This document shows, piece after piece, positions 29,124-52,528 of a stretch of 64,000 nt of DNA; the first letter of the stretch is position 1; every line of letters begins with the position of its first letter. A program made the position numbers and the translations under genes. Under the pieces are notes generated by a model. That model did no database searches and had not been told where the DNA came from. It saw only the letters and a program-made list of their open reading frames with translations. This DNA is from Tetraselmis striata (lineage: Eukaryota; Chlorophyta; Chlorodendrophyceae; Chlorodendrales; Chlorodendraceae), in the NCBI GenBank assembly GCA_006384855.1, contig VCJN01003607.1, positions 30,623 through 94,622 of the forward strand, given 5' to 3'.

Positions 29124-29127
29124 ATGC

Positions 29128-29923
29128 TCTAGATGTTCGGAGAATTCCTAGCTTGCTGTTGGGACAGAGTCTGTGGGATCAGAATATTCTATTACAAAAT
29201 GATGAGAAATGTCTCATTATATTCTCATCTGCAGGATGCCCTTTGCTAGGGGCATGCTCCATCTGCTCATCTGTCCATTTCTCATGCTTCTTGATCTGGC
29301 TCCAATATCCAAAAGGCTATTCAGGTTCAGTCGGACACCTGTCAGAAGTCTGGGTGTGTTTGATCAAGTGATATATGAGGCATGTCTTCACATGCCTCAC
29401 ACCTGTCTTGCTCTGCAGGTCCAGTATATATGTCACTTGATAGTACCAGTACATTCTGTTGGCTAGTCAGACCCTGGCTAGCCCTGCTTTGCCAAACCCT
29501 ACACCTGACAGTTAGATCACCAACATCATCAGGTCGTGTGACCGTTCGGCGACCCGGCGGTTCCCCTCCCTCATACGGGGGCAACGCTTAGCAGCTCTAG
29601 TAGTTTCCCTTAGAGACCTTAGAGATACCGGCCAACTACCGGCATCCAGCAGGAGCAAGGGCGAGGCTGACCGAGGTGTGACCGTTCAGCCGCACGACCC
29701 GCATAAATAGCTCGGAATTCCGGAACTGTAATCATTCCTTCCTTCTCTGCTTCCAGTTCCTGAGCTGTCCCCTTGTTACATTCCATCATTTCTGCAGTAT
29801 AGCCGTAATTTACACTGCACTGTTACGAATTTATCATCAGGCTTATTTGCCTATAAGCCAGATGGGCTCACTTACACTTCATTGGACCAGTTGATCACCT
29901 GCTTTGACCAGTGCTCGTCAACA
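29128..29923 (-). repeat. 3' LTR of copia element 2 (with nested solo LTR)
   Basis: Matches 37144-37613 except for the inserted 29457-29780 segment. A TATATA motif of the LTR lies around 29425-29431. Confidence 0.85.
29457..29780 (+). mobile_element. Solo LTR nested in the 3' LTR of copia element 2
   Basis: The host LTR reads ACATTC continuously in its other copy (37469 region), but here ACATTC occurs twice, at 29451-29456 and 29778-29783, with about 320 bp between. The insert starts TGTTGGCTAG and ends TTGTTACA (TG...CA). It has a promoter-like CATAAATAG at 29702-29710 and a pyrimidine-rich initiator stretch afterwards, as expected of a solo LTR left by recombination. The exact end is ambiguous because CA is shared with the duplicated target. 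Confidence 0.6.
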
Positions 29924-31585
29924 CCCCCCTTCACTGGTTGTAGGTGCAATATTGTAGTTCATGATGCGCGAGTTCAAGGCCTCAAACTGCTGGCGGGACG
30001 CAAGTGGCTTCGTGAAGGTGTCAGCCAGCATGTCAGCAGTGGGCACGTAGTACACCTTGATTTTCTTAGAGCGTTGTGCATCTCGCACGAAGTGAAGTCG
30101 GATGTCCAGGTGCTTGGTCCGGGCTGAGGTTACGTCGTTGGTGGCGATTGTAATACATGCCTGGTTATCTTCTCCGATTGCTGTTGCGCCGTCCTGCTTG
30201 AACCCCAGTTCTGATAGCATCTGCCGCAAGAACATTGCCTCCTGCGCTGTGACGCAAAGCGCTATGTATTCTGCCTCTGCTGTCGAGAGTGCTACCAATG
30301 GCTGAAGCTTGGATAGGTAGCTGACGGCTGCTCCTGCAAGGAAGAATACATAACCGCTGGTCGACTTGCACTGACTGGGATACGTTGTTGGGAAGTTAGC
30401 ATCGCTGTAACCATGAAGGCGAAACTCGCATTCTCCTCCGAAAGTCAGTCCCCGGTCATGAGTTCCTTCCAGGTACCGGACTCAGTGTATGTCGTGCATC
30501 TTCCATGTGTGGCTGAGTTGCTTATGTCATGAATCGGCATAGGCGGCAGACGGCCTCCGCGATGTCAGGACGTGTTACAACCGTTGCGCGTACAATAGTG
30601 ATCCAACGAGGCTCCGGTATGTGGTGGTGGCGCTGTCATCCAGTGCGGTTGATGCCCTCGTATCGTTGCCAGTACTTGGGACATGTGCGGGGGCGCAGTC
30701 GCTCATACCAAAGCGCTCCAGCATGTCGTGGATGTACTTGGAATGGTGAATCTTGATCACGCCGGTTGTCTGGTCATGCTCCATTTTCATGTCCATCAGC
30801 CATGAGCATGTGCCCAGCTCTTTGATGTCAAAGCGCTGTCCGAGTGCATGCTTTAAGTGGGCGCTCCAGGGGCGCGAGTGGCTGACAATGATGATATCGT
30901 CCACGTAGATTGCGATAATGCCCAGAATGACGCCATCGCTGCTCTGGAGGACGTAGGCGCCAAAATCGGTTAACAGTTATCGGCAGTGTTGTGATGTCAT
31001 GTAGTCATTGAGTAGCGTGTGCCAATTGTGGCGGGGTGCTTGCGTTAGACCGTAAACGGCCTTCCTCACTCTGCACACCAGCTTCTCGCCATTGGGTCCA
31101 TACTGCTCAAAGCCGCGGGGCTGCTCCATGTATATCTCCTCGCTCAGATCCGCGTACAGGAACGCGCAGTCCACATCGGTATGTTCGATGTGAAGTCGAT
31201 GGTGGGCGGCAATGGAACAAATGACTCGCAGGGTTGTGAACTTCACAGTGGGTGCGAAGGTGTCGGTGTAGTCGATGCCCTCGACCTGTGAGAACCCCTT
31301 AGCTACCATGCGAGCCTTGTATCTTGCAGTTGTGCCATCCGCGTTGTGCTTGGTCTTGTACAGCCACTTGGATTTGACAGCCTTGCGTCCGCCAGGCAGA
31401 ACCACCAGCTCCCATGTGTGTCTTGAGGGAAGCGAGTTGTACTCCTGGTGCATTGCCTCCAGCCACCAAGGAGCCAGAGAAGAGTTCATGGCCTCCGTGT
31501 AGGTCAGCGGGTCGCCGGGTGTTTCACCCGCCAGTAGTACCCATTCACACGGGTCGATGTTGCGGATGGAGTCTTCTTGAACCAC
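29918..31585 (-). pseudogene. Copia element 2 reverse transcriptase and RNase H, frameshifted
   Basis: The RT N terminus at 31585-30977 contains WLEAMHQEYNSL, KSKWLYKTKHNADGT, YKARMVAKGFSQVEGIDY and DVDCAFLYADLSEEIYMEQP. The catalytic block follows after a shift (30904-30575: MDDIIIVSHS, KYIHDMLERFGMSDC). RNase H (30298-29918) has STAEAEYIALC, EDNQACITIATN and VYYVPTADMLADTFTKPL. The breaks between these frames remove any full-length RT. Confidence 0.85.
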
Positions 31586-33320: not shown

Positions 33321-35609
33321 TTAGTCGTCGTATTGCGCCACCACGTGTGAGGTAGCTCCAGAGTCGAAGATCCATTTGTGGGGGAAGGTGTAAATGCTAG
33401 GAAGAGCGCTCTCGTCCTTGGACGGGGAGGAGATGGCCGCCATCAGCCAGCGCGCCACGTTTGAGTCCACACAAGCTCCAATGATACGACGACGCAGATC
33501 GGCGGACACCTCGGGGAAGTCGACGGCGTTGGCATCGAAGCTCATGGAGATGCATTTGATGTCGTTGGGTGCTTCCTCATACACGCCATTGTGTAGTAAC
33601 ATACTGCTGCCCGGCGTGGACCCATGCATCTGATGCGCGAAACTGCCCTTGCGGGACACAAATAAACTTGCCAAACTTCATGTGTCTGACGCAGGTGGGC
33701 GGGAGCCTGCCACTCCGGTACGAAGCCACCTTTGGCAATCAAATCGCCCACGCTGGTTGGGCGACAGAGCGAACGATGGTAGTGGGCCTGCAGGGCGTCT
33801 GGGCTGCGCGCGTTGGTCCATAGTAGGGTGTCGCGACGGGATGATGATCTGAGCTTGTGTGCGCGGGCCAGGACAAGGTCCCCTAGGGCCGCGCGAATGG
33901 CGGGGAAACGCCCTGCTCCAGCGACATTCTCGATGACGTATGTAATACTGCTCTGCGCGCGGTTGAGCTGCTTGATGAGACGGCAGACGGCATAAAAGGG
34001 CTTGGCTCGCTGGTCATGCAGGCCTTGATTCCTCCCAGCTGATGAGAACGGCTGACACGGAGGACGGTGTTGCCACGAGAAGGTCCACACGCGGAAGTGC
34101 GGCAAACATGTTTGTGGTGAGGAGCTGGACGTCATGAGTGGGGAGGCGGTCGTAGGCATTGGCGATCGCATCAGATGAGATGAGCGCGGTACATTTCGCA
34201 CGGACTCAGTTTAGATCCGGGATCCCGGCAGCATGCACTGCGGTGTCATTCTCCACGAGTGTGATGGTAGCAGTGCGGTGTCCGGCTGCACAAAGTCCGT
34301 CAATGACGCCAAATGTGGCTCCTGCGCAGAGGATGACAACATGGAGTGGGTGGTGGGGCACCAGTGCTGCAGGGTCGGCACGAACGTGGCGGATGGATGG
34401 CAGTGGCGCTGCCTCTCCCACGAAACAACGCTGTTCAGCGGCCGCCAGAGCAGTCTCCAGTTGGTCGATAGCGTTGGGAGGGGACGAGGGGATGACAATT
34501 GGGGTGGTGGCTGCAAGGCGCTTGGTGCCGCCGATGGCAAAGGGGTCGCGCTTCCGAAGGCAACGAGCTGAGCGGCGATTGCGGTGACGACGTGCGCTCT
34601 TAGTCATGGAGAGCCTGGCGTTACTGGATGAGACCCCCTCGTGAGCAGCAGCAACATGCTGCGTCGATGGATTTTGAATGGACACGTCATCGCGGGGCAC
34701 GAGGCGAAAGGAGTCCACGGCATCATCCAGATATGTGTTGTGCATGACAACAAGCGTTGTTGGGGAAATCCAAGGGAGGCTGACATTGGGCCACGCTGTG
34801 AAGGTGCGGGCAGCGGCACGAGTGGCGCGGCGGTGAAGTTTTAATGCACGGGTGCTGGGATTGCGGCGTGCGACCAGCGAGGAGGAGCGGCGAGTGATCG
34901 AGACGGCCTTGTCACCAACAGTGTTGTCTGGGGACAGGTGCGGCATGTTGTTAGAGTTGGGGAAGACGCTCTCAGTGGTGTGCTGCTGAGTAGTGGGTAC
35001 GCCACACAGCGAGGCTGGGCTTGTGTTGTCGTAGAAGTCGTTGTCACTGATACGGTTGTCGCTAATAAGCCCAGGAACGCTTTCGTTCGCGCTGCTAGTG
35101 TCGCCAGATACGGGTGACAGTGTCAAATCATCAGCGGGAGGGAAGCCACGTGCTGCAAGTGCGGCAGGCGCCCAGTGACGCAGGAAATCCACCAGCATGG
35201 CTTCTTCATCATCGGCGCTATCGTACTCAAGATCATGATCGCTCAGGCGGCTGCAGTCAGAAGATATGCCACCGATGGTCGACGCGTTGAAGCGAGAAGC
35301 TGGTACGACGTGCGTCACAGTTGGCATCGGGACGGGTGCCTTACCCGAGCGGTGGGCGGCCGAGTGCAGCCAGTCAGCAGGCCATGGGGTGGGATCATTT
35401 GTGATGATAGCTCGGCGCACGGCAACGTCGTCGGGCAGGATGGTTGCCTTGCTTGTGCGGGCCACAGTCATGGCCACAGGGCTGGCTGCGATGAAGGCTG
35501 CAACATCAGCGATGGCGGCACGCTCCGCTGCTTCCTCCTCAGCGACTGCCGCAACGGCGGCAGCCAAATCTTGCTCTTCAGCTGACACAGCGGCGTTGGC
35601 GTCTCGCAT
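33321..35609 (-). pseudogene. C5-cytosine methyltransferase domain plus protease of copia element 2, decayed
   Basis: After an acidic and low-complexity linker (35609-34360), a Rossmann-type SAM site appears near 34340-34250: VVILCAGATFGVIDGL, then TITLVENDTAVHAAG (motifs I and II). A TGA (34206-34208) interrupts it. The frame then resumes to HDVQLLTTNMFAALPRVDLL. A one-base shift falls at the motif IV site, where the PCQPFSSAGRN box has its catalytic Cys codon at 34055-34057. ENV motif VI (ITYVIENVAGAG) is at about 33933-33915, motif VIII (SSRRDTLLWTNA) near 33860, and motif X (RRRIIGACVDSNVARWLM) near 33495-33440. The copia protease site WIFDSGATSH follows at about 33378-33350. All major methyltransferase motifs are recognisable in the right order, but stop and shifts make this copy inactive. 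C5-methyltransferases transfer a methyl group from SAM to cytosine. Confidence 0.8.
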
Positions 35610-36784
35610 TTCGCGCTCCTCCAGGAGGGTAAGCTCATCGTCTGGCCCGTGGTGTCATCGGAGAAGGTGAGGGAACCGAACGGGTTGTGGGAGCTGAGCG
35701 GGGGTGACGGCACTGCCCTGATCATGGTGCGACGGCCGGCAGGCATAACGGACCAGGCGTCAGTCGGCATGGGTGGGAGGTCAGGCGTGGCGCTGGCAAG
35801 TAGCGCCATGTGGAACGACAGTGCTCCAAACTCCTTGGCGGGCGGCTCCTCTGAACCAGGTGCGAGCCGTGGGCGGCCTTCTCCTGCTGTCTTCCTGTTG
35901 TCAGGCTTGGGGCAGTTACGGGCCAAATGTCCCATGGCGTTGCAGTTGTAGCAGCGGCGGTTCTGCGGATTGAAGCGCGGTGCACTGCCGCCGCCTCCAG
36001 TGTTGTGCTGGGACTGCATTGCAGCTACCATCGCCTTCAGTTCGTCTACCTCGGACTTGCGGGTGGCAGCCTCGGCCTTCTTCTTCTCAGCTTCCAGTTC
36101 AGTCACGCGTGCTTGGAGGGCAGCGTAAGATGTTGCCCCAGCTGGCGCAAAGGCAGCAAAGGCAGCGCCAGGTTGCTCCATACTGATGCTGTGGTCTTGG
36201 ACAGTCCTGATCTTTGCCTTGGCCAGCTCGAAGGTGGTGACAGTGGGGTCGCCCTTCACCACTGCTCGGATAGTGGCATCCTCAGTGCGCATGCCATTGA
36301 GCAGGGATACGAGCATGTCGTCATCCGAGACAGTCGCACCACAGTCCTTGATGGCAATCTGCAGGTCCTCCAGCCGGGTCATGAAGTCAAGGAGATTTTC
36401 ATGAGTACTCTGGCCATGATTCAGTGACGCTTTTAGTTGAGCGAGAAGGGTACGTTCATCGGGAAGGTATGAAGCGCGGAGTTCCTCCAAGGCCTTGAGC
36501 GCTGCGCGCCCGCTTGCTGTCTCACTGGCGCGATCAGCGGCCTTGAGCACGATGCCCTTGGCTTGATTATCCAGTAGTAATGAGGCCATAAAGTTGACAG
36601 CTTCATTGTGATGCGCGTCATCAACAGTGGTGTCATTGGCGCTGAAGATGTTGCGGTACCCAGGAACACCGCGGATGTGGCGCTTGACAGAGATGCACCA
36701 GATCACTAGGAGGCGAGCATCATGGACCTCCTGAAATTCCAGGTACTTGGCCTCCTTGAGCTTGAGTTTGGCAGGGAGAGACAT
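35468..36784 (-). CDS. Gag polyprotein of copia element 2
   Basis: A 438-codon frame beginning MSLPAKLKLKEAKYLEF. Residues 50-200 form the UBN2-type Gag core (ALEELRASYLPDERTLLAQL, NLLDFMTRLEDLQIAIKD, DDMLVSLLNGM). A coiled-coil stretch of Lys/Glu/Ala (about 222-256) follows, then a CCHC zinc knuckle CYNCNAMGHLARNC (Cys278, Cys281, His286, Cys291), which packages RNA. The frame overlaps the next one (35609 leftward) by about 140 bases, so a shift is needed to continue into the methyltransferase part. This is the only uninterrupted ORF of the element. Confidence 0.85.
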   Translation of the reverse strand: MSLPAKLKLKEAKYLEFQEVHDARLLVIWCISVKRHIRGVPGYRNIFSANDTTVDDAHHNEAVNFMASLLLDNQAKGIVLKAADRASETASGRAALKALEELRASYLPDERTLLAQLKASLNHGQSTHENLLDFMTRLEDLQIAIKDCGATVSDDDMLVSLLNGMRTEDATIRAVVKGDPTVTTFELAKAKIRTVQDHSISMEQPGAAFAAFAPAGATSYAALQARVTELEAEKKKAEAATRKSEVDELKAMVAAMQSQHNTGGGGSAPRFNPQNRRCYNCNAMGHLARNCPKPDNRKTAGEGRPRLAPGSEEPPAKEFGALSFHMALLASATPDLPPMPTDAWSVMPAGRRTMIRAVPSPPLSSHNPFGSLTFSDDTTGQTMSLPSWRSAKCETPTPLCQLKSKIWLPPLRQSLRRKQRSVPPSLMLQPSSQPALWP

Positions 36785-37135: not shown

Positions 37136-37143
37136 CCATAACC
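37136..37143 (-). other. Primer-binding site of copia element 2
   Basis: Minus strand GGTTATGG directly after the 5' LTR. It matches the start of the initiator tRNA-Met anticodon-arm site seen in full (GGTTATGGGCCC) in copia element 1; it diverges afterwards. Confidence 0.5.
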
Positions 37144-37613
37144 TCTAGATATTCGGAGAATTCCTAGCTTGCTGTTGGGACAGAGTCTGTGGGATCAGAA
37201 TATTCTATTACAAAATGATGAGAAATGTCTCATTATATTCTCATCTGCAGGATGCCCTTTGCTAGGGGCATGCTCCATCTGCTCATCTGTCCATTTCTCA
37301 TGCTTCTTGATCTGGCTCCAATATCCAAAAGGCTATTCAGGTTCAGTCGGACACCTGTCAGAAGTCTGGGTGTGTTTGATCAAGTGATATATGAGGCATG
37401 TCTTCACATGCCTCACACCTGTCTTGCTCTGCAGGTCCAGTATATATGTCACTTGATAGTACCAGTACATTCCATCATTTCTGCAGTATAGCCGTAATTT
37501 ACACTGCACTGTTACGAATATTATCATCAGGCTTATTTGCCTGTAAGCCAGATGGGCTCACTTACACTTCATTGGACCAGTTGATTACCTGCTTTGACCA
37601 GTGTTCGTCAACA
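37144..37613 (-). repeat. 5' LTR of copia element 2
   Basis: 470 bp, TGTTGACGA at its minus-strand start. Adjacent to CATGC duplication (37614-37618). Confidence 0.85.
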
Positions 37614-37785
37614 CATGCATTCTCACGAGCGATTCGCGGCAGGGGTGTCGGCATAGGCAGCCTGGTCCTGTGAAGCGCCACACCAGCATTTGGAAGCCTG
37701 AGGATGTACAACCGCATTTTTTCATGCGCTATCGAGGTCCACATGGAGGACGGAGGAACGGGACAGAGAGAGTGGTTGATGCCCT

Positions 37786-44445: not shown

Positions 44446-45085
44446 GACTAGACTAGACTAGACTGGACTAGACTAGACTAGACTAGACTAGACTAGACTA
44501 GACTAGACTAGACTAGACTAGACTAGACGAGACGAGACTAGACTCGACGAGACTAGACCAGACTGGACTAGACTAGACTAGACTAGACTAGACTAGACTA
44601 GACTAGACTAGACTAGACTAGACTAGACTAGACTAGACTAGACTAGACTAGGCTAGACTAGACGAGACTAGACGAGACTAGACGAGACTAGACGAGACTA
44701 GACTAGACTAGACTAGACCAGACTAGACTAGACTAGACTAGACTAGACTAGACTAGACTAGACGAGACTAGACTAGACTAGACTAGACTAGACTAGACTA
44801 GACTAGACTAGACTAGACTAGACTAGACTAGACTAGACTAGACGAGACGAGACGAGACGAGACGAGACGAGACGAGACGAGACGAGACGAGACGAGACGA
44901 GACTAGACTAGACTAGACTAGACTAGACTAGACTAGACTAGACTAGACTAGACTAGACTAGACTTGACTTGACTAGACTAGACTAGACTAGACTAGACTA
45001 GACGAGACGAGACGAGACTAGACTAGACTAGACTAGACGAGACGAGACTAGACGAGACCAGACGAGACTATACTAGACGAGACTA
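44446..45085. repeat. (GACTA)n pentanucleotide satellite
   Basis: About 125 units of GACTA with GACGA variants concentrated in blocks (for example 44841-44902). Confidence 0.95.
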
Positions 45086-45208
45086 TACTATACTATACTA
45101 TACTATACTATACTATACTATACTATACTATACTATACTATACTATACTACACTATACTATACTATACTATACTATACTATACTATACTATACTATACTA
45201 TACTATAC
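45082..45208. repeat. (TATAC)n pentanucleotide satellite, left part
   Basis: About 25 near-perfect TATAC units that continue on the other side of copia element 3 (52454-52528), showing that the element inserted into the array. Confidence 0.95.
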
Positions 45209-45729
45209 TGTCGGATGGGGGTTGCGCTGATGGGTAACGCAGGGTAACCGACCAAGTAACGCTGAGTGGGAAAGTCGACTAGGGTCGGCGCACACGCGTC
45301 GAGTCACGTCGAGTGCCAGCAAGCAAGGTGCACGCTGGGAAGGCAGAGGGCAGCTGATGGCTGCAAGCGATGGCTGAGTGGCACTGTCGCTAAGGTGATG
45401 GCTGAGTGGCACTGTCACGAGAGAGAGAGAGAGAGATGAGTCAAGAATTTCAGGGAACAGAGGTTGACTGGATTACAAAGAGCTGAGGCTGGTTTATTTA
45501 TACCAGCCGACTAGGTGTTGATGAAGTCAAATGTTGCTCTGTCTAGGCAGTCAACTAGAAACTTGGGGCTAATTGGTGTCGACGACGTCCACAGAGCGCC
45601 TGCCTGCGTCAGCCCCGTTGTGTCCTATTTAGGAAGATGAGAGGCAACCCGCGGGTAACTCAAACAGGTGCGGATTCCACAGAGGGAAAAAACAGGGATC
45701 CAGGGTACCGGGGTACCCTGGGTCCAACA
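45209..45729 (-). repeat. 3' LTR of copia element 3
   Basis: 521 bp, about 99% identical to 51933-52453 by eye. Confidence 0.95.
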
Positions 45730-45736
45730 CCCCTCC

Positions 45737-48700
45737 TCATCTTGTGGAATCCCGCGGGCGCAGGACTGATGGTGGCAGAGGCGCAACACAAGGCTCCTCG
45801 GAGGATCCCATCAGGAAATCGCGGAAATGTAGAAAAGTAGGGAGTGGCAGCGCCTTGGTGAAGAAATCGGCGAGCTGGTCCTTGGTGGGTGTGTAGTGCA
45901 TGTCGATGACGCCGTCCTGGCACAGTTGTGCCGCGTACTGAAACTTGAGATCAATGTGGCGCTGCGCGCTTGTAATCATGCCATGCTTGACCTGAACGAT
46001 GCACGCCTAGTTGTCCTCGCACACGCGCACTGGGTCAGTGGTGGGGCAGCTGAGCTGACGCAAAAGAACACGGATAAACGCCAGACACTTGCACGCCATG
46101 CAGAGTGCCACGAACTCAGCCTCAGCAGTAGATAGGGCCACGCTCTTCTGAACCTGCGCGCGGTAGGCGACCGGGGTGCCGTGAACCAGGGCAAGAAATC
46201 CAGTAGTGGAGCGGCGCTTGGGCATGAAGGTTGCCCAGTCAGCATCCACAAAAAAGAGGAAGTCAGGGGCTTCGTTGTCCAGTTGCTTCCGGAAGATGAG
46301 GCCATGGCTGGGGGTGCCCTTGAGGTAGCGGAGCACGGAGGTAGCGATCTGCCAATGACGCTCGGTGGGGGATGACATGTAGGCGCACAGGCGACCGACC
46401 ACAATAGCGATGTCTGGACGCGACGCCACAGCCAGCCAGATAAGGCTACCAACGAGATTGGGGTAGGGGAAAAGATTGGTGTCGAGAGGCACGCCCGCAG
46501 GATCATGAAAATCAGTATCCGGGGTGCAAGGCAGGCGGCGAGGCTTGCACTCTGTCATGTTGAAGGTAGACAGAATGTCGTTGATGTACTTTTCTTGATG
46601 AAGATGGACCACGCTGTTCGTCTTGCGATCAATGGCCATGCCAAGAAGCCATGTGCAGAGTCCGTCAGTGGTGGCGTCAAACGTAGTGAAAAGGGAGGTC
46701 TGAAAGCGCTCCTGAACGCCAGATGATGGGGAAGTTGCCAGCATGATGTCATCGACGTAGACGCATAGGATGGCCTGCAGCGACCCATCGGCAGCAAGCA
46801 GTGTCCATACGCCGGGATCGCACTCGGAGCTGATGAAGCCGAAGTCACGAAAAAAGGAAGAAAAGCGCAGAAACCACGCCTTGGGGGCCTGCGGCAGCCC
46901 ATAGAGTGCTTTAACGAGCTTCCAAGCTTGGTTTGTGCGGCCGTAGCCGGGCGGAGGATAGACGTATACATCTTCATCGAGGTCAGCGTTGAGGAAGGCA
47001 CAGGTGACGTCGAATTGATATAGCTCCCAGTCGAGTTGAACTGCGAGAGCAATAATGGTGCGCAAGGCGATGAAGCTGACAACTGGGGCATAGGTCTTGG
47101 TATCATCGTAGTTCTCACCAGCAGTGAGTTGGTCCCCGCGGACGACAACTCGCGCCTTGCGCTTGATGAGGTTGCTTTCCTTATCGTGCTTCTCCGCGAA
47201 GGCCCATGCGGTCTGAATGATGGTGGCTGCTGGGGTGTTGCGTCGAAGCTCAGGGATGCTGATCCATACGAAGGTCTCCATCTTGGTGATAGAAGCAATC
47301 TCGCGGTCCATAGACTTTTTCCACTCATCGGGGTGGTTGCCGGAGATGGCCTCCTTGTAGTTGCGCGGCGCCTTGGATACGCGGACATTAGGTGATGGCA
47401 GGGCGAGGGCTGCCATCTGCGCTGGGTAGGGACGCACAGCCTCCGCGATGGCGGACGCCACCAACGTGGGGTGGTAGTCGCTGAGGTCAGGATATGGGCA
47501 AAGCGGGTGTGCCGGCGCGTGGAATTGAGGTGCTGGGAGCGCCGTGGCGTCCCCCTCCTGATGATGCAGAAGATACTCCTCGGTGAGATGTGGAGGCGGG
47601 AGCCCCTCCTGCGCCGAGGTAGGTGCCGCTGGCGGCTGCATGGTAGGCGGTGCCTGGAGCCCCTCCTGCTGATCCGAGGGTGGCGGCTCCTCCAGCATGC
47701 GAGCATTGTTGGGGACCTGGAAGAGTGGCACAGGGAGCGCCGGTGTGCCAGAGAAGGGACGAGTCACCTCGTCGAATATGACATCCCGCGTCACTGTCTC
47801 GCGCCGGGTAGCGGGATTGTAGATGCGGTGGCCAGCGGAGTCCTCATGATGTCCGACATAGATGCCCGGCCAGGATTTGGGTGTCATTTTTCCTTTGGCG
47901 AGGCGCACAGCCACAGGGATGTTGACCCATGCCACACAACCGAAGACATGAAGGTTGGCCGGGTCGGGCTTGCGGCCGGTCATCAGCGTGTAGGGTATGG
48001 CGTTGACGGACGAGCTCCATTGGCGGTTGCAGAGATAGACAGCGTGAAGATACGCCCAATCCCAGAAGGTGCGGTCGAGGCCCGCGTGAAGAAGCATGGC
48101 TTGGGCACACTCACCGATGGTGCGAAAGGAGCGCTCCGCCAGTCCTGCCTGGTGATGGGAGTGGGACGCAGTAAATTCCAGCGCGGTGTTGAGGTCGGCG
48201 CATGCTTGACGAAACGGAGAACCAGTGTAAACCGCGCTGCGATCAGCACGGATGCGCTGGATGGAGTGACCCATGCCGAGCACCGCTGCATGAAGTTGAT
48301 GAACAGCTCGAACGGCCTCGTCCTTGGTGCGCATAGTGACAGCCACTTTAACTCCAGTGTGAGAATCCACTGCACCAAAGATATGCTGCGCGCCAGTGAC
48401 CGATGGGCATGGTCCCTTCCAGTCGTCGATGACCATGAGGCCGCACGGTTCTGTCGCACGTGGGGAGGGCTGACGGCTGACCGACTGCTGATGGGACTTA
48501 GCATGGACGCACGCCGGGCAGACGGCATCTGGTGCCGGACCGAGAGATGGGACACCGACAGCATGTTGCTGGGTGAGCCGCATGTGACGATCGCAGCGAT
48601 GACCGAGGCGAAGATGCCACAGTGAGTAGGAGGCAGTGGGCGACGGCAGCGCCACGACCCCATGAGAAGAGTCGTGCATGGGAAGGAGCTTGATGCCATA

Positions 48701-49807
48701 CAGGCCCGGGGCGCCGGGATAGGGTTGAAGGTGGATGATCGCTCCTTCCGGTGTGATCATGCTGTTGAGCAGGTTGCTGAGGTAGAAAGAGTAGCCCTGC
48801 TTGCTGAGTTGGTGGGTGCTGAGAAGGCGACTGATGTTGGTAAGGCCGACGCCGGAGGTGATGTCGGGAGTGTGGTAGCAGTCTCGTGCCACAATGGTAT
48901 GCGGTTTGCCGGTGATGTCCAGTGTTGGTGCCATTGTGGTGCCAATGCCGATGGCTGGTTTCCCGAAGCCGCCTACCAGGAACTGCTCCGTCGCAGGAAT
49001 AGTCAGGTAATAGATGTAGTCTGTGCGGTGGGCATTGACGTGAGAGGATGCGCCTGAGTCGACGAGCACCCATGATCCTCCGTCGCAGCTGATGAAGACG
49101 CCGCGCGGTGTGGCGCAGACAGCGATGATTGGTGGAGGGGCGGCGGCGCCCGAGACAGCCTTGATGTAGGCGCGCATGACGTTGAGATCGATGACTCCGC
49201 CGAGAAGCGTGCGCAGCGTAGTCTCAGAAAGACGATCAGTGGGTAGGTCGTCCAAGGTGAAACCCATGGCGCGAGCGCGTAGAGCCGCAGGGGGCTCGCT
49301 CCACCGGCCGTTTTCCGCCCATGATCCGGGGCCATCATGTTCGTAGACCATGCCAGCTCCTGGCACATCGTTGGTCTGCATACGAAAGGCATATGAGCTT
49401 GGGCGAGCGACGAACTTGGGGAAGTAATCGGTCGTCACCACTGGGGTGAAGTGAGGAAACTCCGAAAGGCAGAGGTCCCATGCGCAGGGCCCGGGGTCGG
49501 TGAGTTCAATGTTGTTGATGGTGTCGATGTAGTCCTGGATATCTTGTTGTTGAGCGATGTATGTCCACAGGAGGGTGTCCCTGTGTGCTGCTGAGCCACA
49601 GGCGGTTGCGCGCATGATGTTGCCGGTGCCAAGCGAGGTGAGTATCTCGGGACGTCCAGTGCTCCTGGCACATTCTCCACTATGTAGCGGACCGGCGTGG
49701 GCTGTGTGGTCAGGTAGAAGCGGATGAAGCCAATGACCGAGGTGAAGGCACGAGAGCGGTGGTCCTGCCAGCCAAGGCGCGAGCCCGCGCGTGACCAAGG
49801 TTGGCAT
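45737..49807 (-). CDS. Pol of copia element 3: methyltransferase C-terminal part, protease, integrase, RT, RNase H
   Basis: One frame runs 1266 codons (49807-46007); after a TAG it continues to 45737. Residues 53-217 are the C-terminal half of the methyltransferase (AAHRDTLLWTYI, motif VIII; EPPAALRARAMGF, motif IX; LLGGVIDLNVMRAYI, motif X). Protease site VDSGASSH at 249-256. Pre-integrase WHLRLGHRCDRHM at 397-409 with CPAC at 430. Integrase core Asp461/462, Asp522 (RADRS, where most elements have DNG) and Glu558 (AGLAERSF). RT from about 828 (WKKSMDREI) with VKALYGLPQAPKAW and the YVDD active site at 1017-1020. RNase H with FVDADWA (1186-1192) and STAEAEF. The TAG (46007-46009) replaces the Gln of the conserved EDNQAC motif and cuts off the last part of RNase H (DMHYTPTKDQLADFFTKALP). 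RT, integrase and protease look usable. Confidence 0.9.
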
Positions 49808-50959
49808 GGGGGTCCTGACACGATGAGGGAGACCGGGCGCAGGCGCTCCAGCTCCACGATAGTGATGTCGTTGACGTCCATGGGGGTCCTGTCATGACAG
49901 CCCTGAAATGCCAATGGAGACAAACGATCCGGGTACTTGTCGCTGATGACTCTCAGACGATGCGTCCACAAAATGCGAGCCTCGGGCGACGGGTCAGCGC
50001 CTGTGATCTTGTGGATTGTGAAGCCGCATTCCACCAACGCCTCCACCTCGGACGCGGATGGTCCATGGCATGGTGAAAATAGGTGGTCGATGACCAGAGA
50101 AGTCGGGAGCGGGAGGATGGGGGCGGCGGTGAGGACCGGTAGTGTAGGTGGCGGGTCACCACGCAAGGCGCCCTGCTCCGCATGCAGAATATGGGATGCC
50201 AACGCGGCTGACGCCGGGAACATGGGTGACGTGAGACATAGAGGATGGGCTGGGACATGGGCGAGCTGAGGTGATGTCGTATAGGGGGATGGTGAAGTCA
50301 AGGCAGTCATCAGAGTCGGAGCAGGAGACGCGCATGGGGGCTTGTAGGTCCTCCTCCGCATCGTCCTCGCCGTCCCCCTCTTGGGCTCCGGCGGCGGCCC
50401 CTCCGGGGGCGGTGGTGGTGCAGGTGAGCCTAATAGGCAGGCTGCTGGTGTGCTGTGCGGACGGGGATGCACCAACAAAGGGATAAGACTCCTGATGTCC
50501 TGCGCTGTGTTGGTGGGCGGAGTCGTCGGCCTGCTGGTGACCATGGTGCTGATGACCTGTTGGGGAGACGAAACTGACTGGCTGCTGATGGCGCTGCTGG
50601 CCGTCATTGCCGCCCTGGTTGGTCCAGTGACGGCGATGAGGAGGTCCGTCCCGATGGCCGCTGTTGGTGCCGTAGCGCTGCTGTCCCGGTGGCGCGTGAT
50701 GAAAGTCGGTGTTGCGCTGGTTGCGATTGTAGTCATTGGTGTTGCGTGCCACAGGTGCACGCCGGGGGTGGTCATAGCGAGGATCGTTGGCATGGGGGGC
50801 AGGGCCATTGTCCATGAGGTGCATACCATTGGCATGGCGTCTCGCCACACATTGCTGGAGAGTATGGCCTGGGCGGTTACACCTGCTGCAAATGATGCCG
50901 AGCCTGGTGGGGAGACGCTGCTCCCTGGAGTCCTGGAAGCCAATGACCGGTGGGCGCAC
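49640..50959 (-). CDS. Zinc knuckle and N-terminal half of the C5-methyltransferase of copia element 3
   Basis: From 50959 one frame carries the CCHC knuckle CSRCNRPGHTLQQC and a His/Asn/Gln-rich linker, ending at 50156. The neighbouring frame then encodes the methyltransferase N half: SLVIDHLFSPCHGPSASEVE near 50100-50040 (motif I position, poorly conserved), ADPSPEARILWTHRLRVISD (motif II), PVSLIVSGPPCQPWSRAGSR (motif IV, with catalytic Cys codon at 49804-49806) and VRYIVENVPGA (motif VI, 49683-49668). A second frame change near 49650 leads to motifs VIII-X in the Pol frame. The PPCQ and ENV boxes are diagnostic of cytosine-C5 methyltransferases. DNMT3/DRM-like spacing is suggested but needs an alignment. 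The enzyme could methylate the element's own cDNA or chromatin at insertion sites; that role is inference. Confidence 0.8.
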
Positions 50960-50968
50960 CGCGAAACG

Positions 50969-51742
50969 CTAGCGGCGCTGACGCCTGCGCGCCTCCATGT
51001 TCTGACCGGCGCTGATGATGGTTGCCAGGCGCTCGTTGACGGTGGCCGTGGAGATGGTGGTATCAACAATATGATCGTAGTCCGGGTGAAGTCCTGGGAT
51101 GAGGTAGTTGTTGACGACATACTCAAAGGTCCACCGGCCATGCGCCTTGTCCAGGAGCTGCCAGAGTGTTCGATAACGACGCACGTAGACCTGGACCGGC
51201 TCGTTAGGGAGCTGGCCAGCGGTGATCTCCTCCTCCAGGCGCTTACGCTCCTCCATAGACGAGCCCTGAAGCTCAGTAAGAAGGGCCTTCCAGGCTGCAT
51301 ACCCGCACCGTCTGGTGTCCATGCTGATGCTGTTGACAATGGCCAGTGCTGTGGGATACCCAGCGGTGGCATGGCGCAGAGCGGCCAAAAGAATCATCTG
51401 CTCCTGGCGAGTGCCCTTGCCCTTGGTGGTATTTAGGTAGCCGGCGCTGCCCAGGCTGATCTTGATGGCTTGAGTGTTGTCCCTCACCGAGATGGACTGG
51501 TCCCAGACAGGAACGTTCTTGAGGTCCAGGGCGGGCTTGACTGCGGCCGGGATGAGCTGCTGACTTGCGCCAATGTCGTCAGCAGAATCGCTGTTGTGAT
51601 GGAAGTCGTCCTCGGAGCCGGAGTCTTCACTGAAATCAGGTGGTGGCGGATCGCCCTCATGGTCGTGCTGCTTGATCGAACCTTTTCCAGCCAGATTGGC
51701 CAGGGGAGTGTTCATCATGCTGGTGGTGATACTGGTAGTCAT
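50969..51742 (-). CDS. Gag of copia element 3
   Basis: From the likely start ATG at 51742 (MTTSITTSMMNTPLANLAGK) to TAG at 50969-50971. It has an acidic N terminus and the UBN2-type core (AWKALLTELQGSSMEERKRL, PVQVYVRRYRTLWQLLDKAH, YVVNNYLIPGLHPDYDHI). The same frame continues after the amber codon into the zinc knuckle at 50959, so Gag and knuckle were one protein; the TAG is either a mutation of a Gln codon or a readthrough site. Confidence 0.8.
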   Translation of the reverse strand: MTTSITTSMMNTPLANLAGKGSIKQHDHEGDPPPPDFSEDSGSEDDFHHNSDSADDIGASQQLIPAAVKPALDLKNVPVWDQSISVRDNTQAIKISLGSAGYLNTTKGKGTRQEQMILLAALRHATAGYPTALAIVNSISMDTRRCGYAAWKALLTELQGSSMEERKRLEEEITAGQLPNEPVQVYVRRYRTLWQLLDKAHGRWTFEYVVNNYLIPGLHPDYDHIVDTTISTATVNERLATIISAGQNMEARRRQRR

Positions 51743-51919
51743 GTTGACATAGTGGTACACTTTTTCTGGAAGATGTAGTATGTGACGGGGTGGGTGGGTG
51801 GGAAAAAAAATGTCGTTCGTAGTCGTCGACCGTCGAGAGCTGTCGAGGGTCGAGATGCACGCAGGTTGAAGCCTCTGGCAGGCGTCGAGCACGGGGCAAG
51901 ACGTCGAAACCAAAGGAGA

Positions 51920-51932
51920 GGGCCCAAAAACC
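51920..51932 (-). other. Primer-binding site region of copia element 3
   Basis: GGTTTTTGGGCCC on the minus strand directly after the 5' LTR, a variant of GGTTATGGGCCC in copia element 1. Confidence 0.5.
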
Positions 51933-52453
51933 TGTCGGATGGGGGTTGCGCTGATGGGTAACGCAGGGTAACCGACCGAGTAACGCTGAGTGGGAAAGTC
52001 GACTAGGGTCGGCGCACACGCGTCGAGTCACGTCGAGTGCCAGCAAGCAAGGTGCACGCTGGGAAGGCAGAGGGCAGCTGATGGCTGCAAGCGATGGCTG
52101 AGTGGCACTGTCGCTAAGGTGATGGCTGAGTGGCACTGTCACGAGAGAGAGAGAGAGAGATGAGTCAAGAATTTCAGGGAACAGAGGTTGACTGGATTAC
52201 AAAGAGCTGAGGCTGGTTTATTTATACCAGCCGACTAGGTGTTGATGAAGTCGAATGTTGCTCTGTCTAGGCAGTCAACTAGAAACTTGGGGCTAATTGG
52301 TGTCGACGACGTCCACATAGCGCCTACCTGCGTCAGCCCCGTTGTGTCCTATTTAGGAAGATGAGAGGCAACCCGCGGGTAACTCAAACAGGTGCGGATT
52401 CCACAGAGGGAAAAAACAGGGATCCAGGGTACCGGGGTACCCTGGGTCCAACA
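51933..52453 (-). repeat. 5' LTR of copia element 3, with TATA box in a hairpin
   Basis: Contains TATAAATAAA (minus strand, 52226-52217) between inverted arms GGCTGG and CCAGCC (52211-52232), a likely promoter. The same hairpin is in the 3' LTR. Confidence 0.9.
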
Positions 52454-52528
52454 TATACTATACTATACTATACTATACTATACTATACTATACTATACTA
52501 TATTATACTATACTATACTATACTATAC
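52454..52528. repeat. (TATAC)n satellite, middle part
   Basis: Fifteen TATAC units between copia element 3 and the non-LTR fragment. Confidence 0.95.

Follow-up and report, generated by a model that had tools for sequence, protein, structure and literature searches.

A putative DNMT3-like cytosine methyltransferase between Gag and protease in a Copia retrotransposon family of Tetraselmis striata

DNA methylation is a standard weapon against transposons. Why, then, would a retrotransposon carry a cytosine methyltransferase (MTase) of its own? The question is raised by a 64-kb stretch of DNA (the window) from Tetraselmis striata, a chlorophyte of the class Chlorodendrophyceae, in which a Ty1/copia retrotransposon (C1) occupies positions 45209–52453 on the minus strand and bears a C5-MTase domain between Gag and protease. 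On balance, and with moderate confidence, we favor the view that C1 is a defective young copy of a Copia family whose DNMT3-like C5-MTase is kept by selection, is packaged, and would mark the element's own cDNA.

The domain is split by a single frameshift near 49650. Its N-terminal half (49651–50097, minus strand like all features of C1) holds motifs I (LFSPCHG), II, III, IV (PPCQPWS, with its Cys codon at 49804–49806), and VI (ENVPG within IVENVPG, with ENV at 49677); its C-terminal half (49142–49651) lies in the pol frame and holds motif VIII (HRDTLLW), the target-recognition region, and motif X (LLGGVIDLNV). The PC of motif IV, the ENV of motif VI, and motifs VIII and X of C5-MTases are all found. 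In a Pfam search, the N-terminal half matches PF00145 with E 2e-10, scoring 41.1 bits where the cut-off is 22, and it matches TIGR00675 of NCBIfam with E 4e-10, yet below the curated cut-off. A profile made from three T. striata proteins (P0004, P0007, and P0010) matches the two halves in a complementary manner, positions 1–156 falling on the N-terminal half (E 1e-92) and positions 150–319 on the C-terminal half (E 1e-103). The PF00145 score and the E values of this family profile rule out a chance match of motifs. An earlier note, made from the letters of this DNA, had proposed a young Copia element in which a C5-MTase separates Gag from protease, and the domain order, the PF00145 match, and the long terminal repeats (LTRs) bear it out; PPCQPWS, ENV, the protease site DSGASSH (49060), and the Gag zinc knuckle (50890) all lie where it had placed them. 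The profile search that it proposed gives a significant hit: PF00145 detects the N-terminal half and the family profile detects both; the C-terminal half alone gives no Pfam match. The span that it gave for the element, 45737–51742, was too short.

The remainder of C1 is that of a Ty1/copia element. Its LTRs (3' LTR at 45209–45729, 5' LTR at 51933–52453) are 521 bp each, end in TG..CA, and differ at 4 of 521 positions, as near-identical as had been claimed. A polypurine tract (45730–45743; AAGATGAGGAGGGG in sense) adjoins the 3' LTR. Gag runs from an ATG (51740–51742) to an in-frame TAG (50969–50971), thus covering 50972–51742, and is identical to P0004 at 193 of 245 residues; its match to Retrotrans_gag in the Pfam search is below cut-off (E 0.038). 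By motif scan, Gag continues through 50159–50968, which comprises a zinc knuckle of the pattern CX2CX4HX4C (CSRCNRPGHTLQQC, 50849–50890), matched by zinc-knuckle Pfam models below cut-off only, and a linker. Downstream of the MTase follow the aspartic protease, from DSGASSH onward (48806–49060, the lower bound being approximate; P0004 agrees at 77 of 85 residues), the GAG-pre-integrase and integrase core (48158–48682; PF13976 E 1e-7, PF00665 E 4e-6, the latter at 27.6 bits under a cut-off of 32.6, though its position in the domain order fits), an SH3-like domain of the integrase (47759–47980; PF25597 E 8e-21), the Copia reverse transcriptase (46526–47224; PF07727 E 1e-47), and an RNase H region (45737–46525). 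This last region is broken by an in-frame TAG at 46007–46009; upstream of the stop, 155 of 169 residues are identical to P0014, and 3' of it there is no Pfam match. The order of protease, integrase, and reverse transcriptase, the Copia type of the last, the LTR ends, and the polypurine tract are all as expected for Ty1/copia. Gag and pol share a reading frame, and the N-terminal half of the MTase lies in a different one. The copy in the window is thus young yet defective and cannot encode an intact MTase, although its frame breaks may be errors of assembly. The best database match to its pol, the T. striata protein P0003 (EukProt Tetstr1), is 99% identical over 85% of the searched region and ends exactly at the TAG in RNase H, indicating the same locus or a near-identical copy.

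Long pentanucleotide repeats (TAGAC and TATAC) flank the element at 44500–45200 and 52454–52520. TATAC borders C1 on both sides, but the site itself is a TATAC repeat, so a 5-bp duplication is uninformative; the insertion target was a TATAC array.

If the window copy is broken, is the domain kept elsewhere in the genome? Members of the family were seen as gene models only, in a comparison set of 91 proteins that includes 2 from the window. One such model, P0004 (1948 residues, 31 members), contains Gag, MTase, protease, integrase, and reverse transcriptase in a single protein, with PF00145 (37.1 bits) between Gag and pre-integrase, and the window aligns to its residues 535–737 and 736–1791 without intron-like gaps. 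The MTase profile matches 67 T. striata clusters, several of which have Gag and pol around the MTase. The earlier note had allowed that the segment might lack a profile hit or be a chance insertion missing from other copies; neither was the case. A segment joined to the window copy alone, by chance or by chimeric assembly, has almost no credence: the frame breaks of this copy would suit it, and both the 67 clusters and a second element with the same order speak against it.

The family also provides an indication of constraint. Between the window copy and P0004, which belong to different subfamilies, identity is 89.0% (129/145) in the N-terminal and 86.9% (146/168) in the C-terminal half of the MTase, as compared with 90.6% (77/85) in protease, 89.9% (266/296) in integrase, 88.3% (288/326) in reverse transcriptase, and 78.8% (193/245) in Gag; RNase H is 91.7% (155/169) identical to P0014. 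The linkers are at 57.0% after the zinc knuckle (118/207), 13 of 27 residues between MTase and protease, and 60.6% between integrase and reverse transcriptase (63/104). Constraint on the MTase, judged by this protein-level proxy, matches that on the polymerase enzymes, unlike that on the linkers. Motifs IV and VI are both present in the aligned part of 35 clusters; the catalytic Cys is kept in 19 of 19 where the EN of motif VI is intact and in 9 of the remaining 16. Of the 18 EN-intact clusters that reach motif VIII, 15 have its Arg. On these sequences, the MTase is a real and well conserved domain that probably functions.

A second Copia element in the window (C2, 29127–37614, minus strand) shares the arrangement. 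Its LTRs are at about 29127–29924, the 3' LTR, which contains an insertion of about 320 bp, and at 37143–37614. Its zf-CCHC (E 5e-7, knuckle at 35953), pre-integrase (E 8e-9), and RVT_2 (E 2e-40) domains are recognizable. Between zinc knuckle and protease (DSGATSH at 33365), as in C1, lies an MTase in three reading-frame pieces (33420–34352), with motif I (VVILCAGATFGV) at 34209–34352, PPCQPFSSAG, YVIENVAG, and RRDTLLWTN within 33545–34210 (PF00145 E 5e-7, above cut-off), and IIGACVDSNV as motif X within 33324–33677. The C1 MTase profile finds the middle and the last piece (E 3e-17 at 33545–34210 and E 8e-5 at 33324–33677). The two elements are distant, at about 30% identity in pol, 41% in the MTase core over about 94 residues, and roughly 25–30% in the C-terminal part of the MTase. 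The order Gag, MTase, protease is therefore common to two distant Copia lineages. A third, degraded Copia pol lies on the minus strand at about 10.8–13.5 kb. Neither profile gives an MTase match over the inclusion threshold there, and zinc knuckle, PPC[QN], and ENV motifs were not found on the minus strand at 11–19 kb; because this element is degraded, the negative result is weak evidence.

Might the MTase nevertheless be a passenger, a captured host gene without a role whose loss is pending? A group of gene models in which the domain has decayed could be read in this way. We compared with P0004 13 models that have an altered motif VI or are close to that group. Ten of them (P0059, P0060, P0062, P0063, P0066, P0071, P0073, P0075, P0031, and P0033) jump from P0004 residue 790 to 1341 and so lack the C-terminal half of the MTase, the protease, and most of the integrase; in P0061 and P0065 the jump is from 805 to 1388, and a comparable junction occurs in P0030. 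These shortened models retain Gag and/or the N-terminal half of the MTase, where the catalytic Cys is often Leu and motif VI is altered. The simplest reading is probably a single shared deletion in non-autonomous derivatives, although a predicted intron at a common site may be the cause. Against a passenger, the MTase is constrained to the level of reverse transcriptase and integrase while the linkers diverge, and it holds the identical position in two distant Copia elements. We consider a passenger very improbable.

One motif of the conserved domain is unusual. In place of the canonical FxGxG of motif I, the family has H[LI]FSPCHG in 22 of the 24 clusters that cover the motif, so that the poor conservation noticed earlier is, on the sequences at hand, a non-canonical form fixed throughout the family. 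C2 has LCAGATFG at this position, and the nearest relatives that we found by sequence outside Tetraselmis, the metagenome proteins P0042 and P0081, have LCGGIGTG and PFGGLCAG. A fixed departure from such GGIGTG-type loops is what might be expected of a DNMT3L-like module, one in which binding of S-adenosylmethionine (SAM) is lost or weakened and which serves the polyprotein in nucleic-acid binding, assembly, or targeting instead of in catalysis. Such a module would not need the Cys, EN, and motif X, all of which are conserved with the domain. Moreover, the predicted model of the family MTase has a C5-MTase fold, and in the model of P0010, motif I forms a strand (265–269), a loop, and a helix (275–284), as in P0042, so that the geometry appears to be retained. 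We regard the DNMT3L-like alternative as unlikely, while giving it more weight than any other rival to an active DNA MTase.

Which class of MTase, then, is it? DNMT2 is a tRNA methyltransferase, and if the Copia domain were of this kind, it could methylate the genomic RNA or the primer tRNA inside the particle. The domain adjoins the nucleocapsid, and by sequence Dnmt2 is slightly ahead of DNMT3 (E 2.6e-5 versus 0.0084 with the profile, 0.0017 versus 0.0036 with a single sequence), M.HaeIII being first for the single sequence and Dnmt2 for the profile. By fold, in contrast, predicted models score higher with DNMT3 than with Dnmt2, both for the Copia MTase (10.3 versus 8.6, where DNMT3 ties with M.HaeIII) and for P0042 (12.0 versus 8.8). 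For P0042 and P0081, DNMT3 chains outscore Dnmt2 by sequence as well, and DNMT3A ranks first for P0042 by both measures. Fold and weak sequence similarity together suggest a DNMT3-like enzyme, and an RNA MTase seems to us rather improbable, even though an RNA role has been proposed for SymbioLINE-Dnmt (PMC5890265, in its Discussion).

Where did the domain come from? The earlier note had thought of a possible separate acquisition; the nearest relatives found outside Tetraselmis are MTases of other retroelements. P0081 (1742 residues, on a 10.8-kb contig) is a Gypsy-type polyprotein with the order reverse transcriptase, RNase H, MTase, integrase, PHD; its MTase is 28% identical to that of the Copia family over about 320 residues (E 2e-26 in a small database), with a motif X of the same type (LGQCIDAN) but a canonical motif I and the Gypsy-type order. 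The PHD finger near its C terminus is a possible histone reader beside a DNA-methylating domain. In P0042, the MTase (31% identical over about 300 residues, motif X LGQCIDLN, motif I again canonical) is followed by an RNase H-like segment (TDGS), recognized by eye and without a Pfam match. The form (L/I)Gx(C/V)(I/V)DxN of motif X is a candidate marker of the clade. In a tree whose sole eukaryote anchor is DNMT3A, C1 groups with C2, then with P0042, and then with P0081, with DNMT3A outside (supports 94/85, 97/84, and 91/86), and DNMT3A together with these MTases is set apart from 15 rows of metagenome and viral-contig origin (99/96). Thus, descent from or exchange with other retroelements is at least as likely as fresh capture from a host.

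The reverse transcriptases speak against simple co-descent of C1 and C2. That of C2 is 40% identical over 174 residues to P0087, a Copia protein on a 4.5-kb contig whose sequence starts at integrase, as compared with 30% over 188 residues between C1 and C2 and 32% over 281 residues between C1 and P0087. Since the MTases of C1 and C2 group together while the C2 reverse transcriptase is nearer P0087, MTase exchange between Copia lineages is possible, and both the tree and this discordance fit a travelling module: a DNMT3-derived MTase clade shared across C1, C2, Gypsy-type, and RNase H-bearing elements, exchanged between superfamilies rather than recaptured in each host, with the SAM loop of C1 rebuilt as LFSPCHG. 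We offer this tentatively, as a reading that may well prove wrong.

Viral, phage, and prokaryote donors were sought and set aside. A viral-contig scan gave 12 pattern matches and no P0042 relative; from 128 pattern matches, an alignment retained 11 viral loci, all similar only locally (25–45% identity); tblastn of P0042 against phages returned 7 records, none covering 80%; and prokaryotes gave 5 loci from 34 pattern matches, with local identity of 31–49% only. Relatives may have escaped these scans, which were seeded by short conserved patterns. One further alignment-based search, limited to the 8000 candidates with the most shared words, did not return P0042 even though P0042 was a row of its alignment, so a missing hit there does not show absence.

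How might an element profit from such an enzyme? In the mechanism that we favor, the MTase would enter the virus-like particle within the polyprotein, beside the nucleocapsid, and would methylate the cDNA of the element, either while it is being reverse-transcribed or afterwards. New insertions would then arrive pre-marked. Pre-marked copies might be tolerated or down-regulated, which would amount to copy-number control; alternatively, they might pass as host DNA. That SAM is bound in spite of the changed motif I, that DNA is the substrate, and that the protein is packaged are points that we infer, as are timing and benefit. Of the four differences between the LTRs, three are C/T when read in sense, two of these in CpG and one in CAG, which may reflect deamination of 5-methylcytosine, in CG and CHG contexts, by any agent.

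Several points weigh against this mechanism. First, it is predicted from sequence. Second, with LFSPCHG replacing FxGxG, the predicted SAM binding is not assured. Third, the putative selection is judged by a protein-level proxy from members known as gene models, and P0004 itself skips part of RNase H and has an unrelated C terminus. Fourth, there is no CpG depletion specific to C1 relative to the other Copia stretches of the window: observed/expected CpG is 0.875 in its internal region and 0.80 in its LTR, as compared with 0.872 and 0.647 for the two remaining Copia stretches and 0.958 elsewhere in the window, which lends no support to heavier methylation of this family than of the others. Fifth, four differences between the LTRs do not allow statistics. 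Sixth, the third Copia, degraded as it is, shows that elements without a detected MTase exist. Finally, in the yeast assay of PMC5890265, the MTases of SymbioLINE and KnitGypsy produced no methylation, which its authors called inconclusive.

Retrotransposon-borne C5-MTases as such are not new, as the earlier note had said. According to the available text of PMC5890265, DNMTs occur in dinoflagellate LINE and DIRS elements and in a Klebsormidium Gypsy element, whereas the abundant Copia elements of Symbiodinium lack one. SymbioDIRS-Dnmt3 is the closest in kind, a DNMT3-like MTase in a retroelement polyprotein with reported catalytic residues and purifying selection, and it methylated CG de novo in yeast (PMC5890265); it differs in belonging to a DIRS element with a tyrosine recombinase, as opposed to a Copia element of a chlorophyte with a Gag-proximal MTase and an altered motif I. 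KnitGypsy-Dnmt3 of Klebsormidium nitens likewise sits in an LTR retrotransposon (PMC5890265), as a Dnmt3 domain in Pol, but of the Gypsy superfamily, rather than between nucleocapsid and protease of a Copia element. A DNMT within the coding region and many copies are shared with the elements of de Mendoza et al. 2018. A single sentence of Sarre et al. 2025 (PMC12344493) puts DNMT3 in LTR Copia and DIRS elements, crediting the 2018 streptophyte and dinoflagellate work; its main text does not mention Tetraselmis, and the passages available neither analyze a Copia element nor describe how one is built. The available portions of PMC10120064 and PMC11244446 contain nothing on this Copia family, and in the full-text literature, excluding preprints and most subscription journals, we found no published Tetraselmis Copia with an MTase. 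The chlorophyte Copia group with an MTase is new, beside the retrotransposon DNMTs already known in LINE, DIRS, and Gypsy elements, and the MTase module is possibly shared among retroelement superfamilies; if it does pass between them, the published picture of independent capture needs revision.

For the alga, the finding may matter in another way. In the transcriptome set examined in PMC9998398 (2023), as far as its available text goes, green algae had no DNMT3, but Tetraselmis astigmata had DNMT5a, and three Tetraselmis had DNMT6. DNMT3-type activity in such a cell could thus come in important part from the element. A transposon with a DNA MTase of its own, held under selection, would reverse the picture of methylation as defense. 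With many copies in a culturable alga, models that have lost catalytic residues, and C2 to serve as an internal control, the purpose of a retrotransposon MTase would become directly testable.

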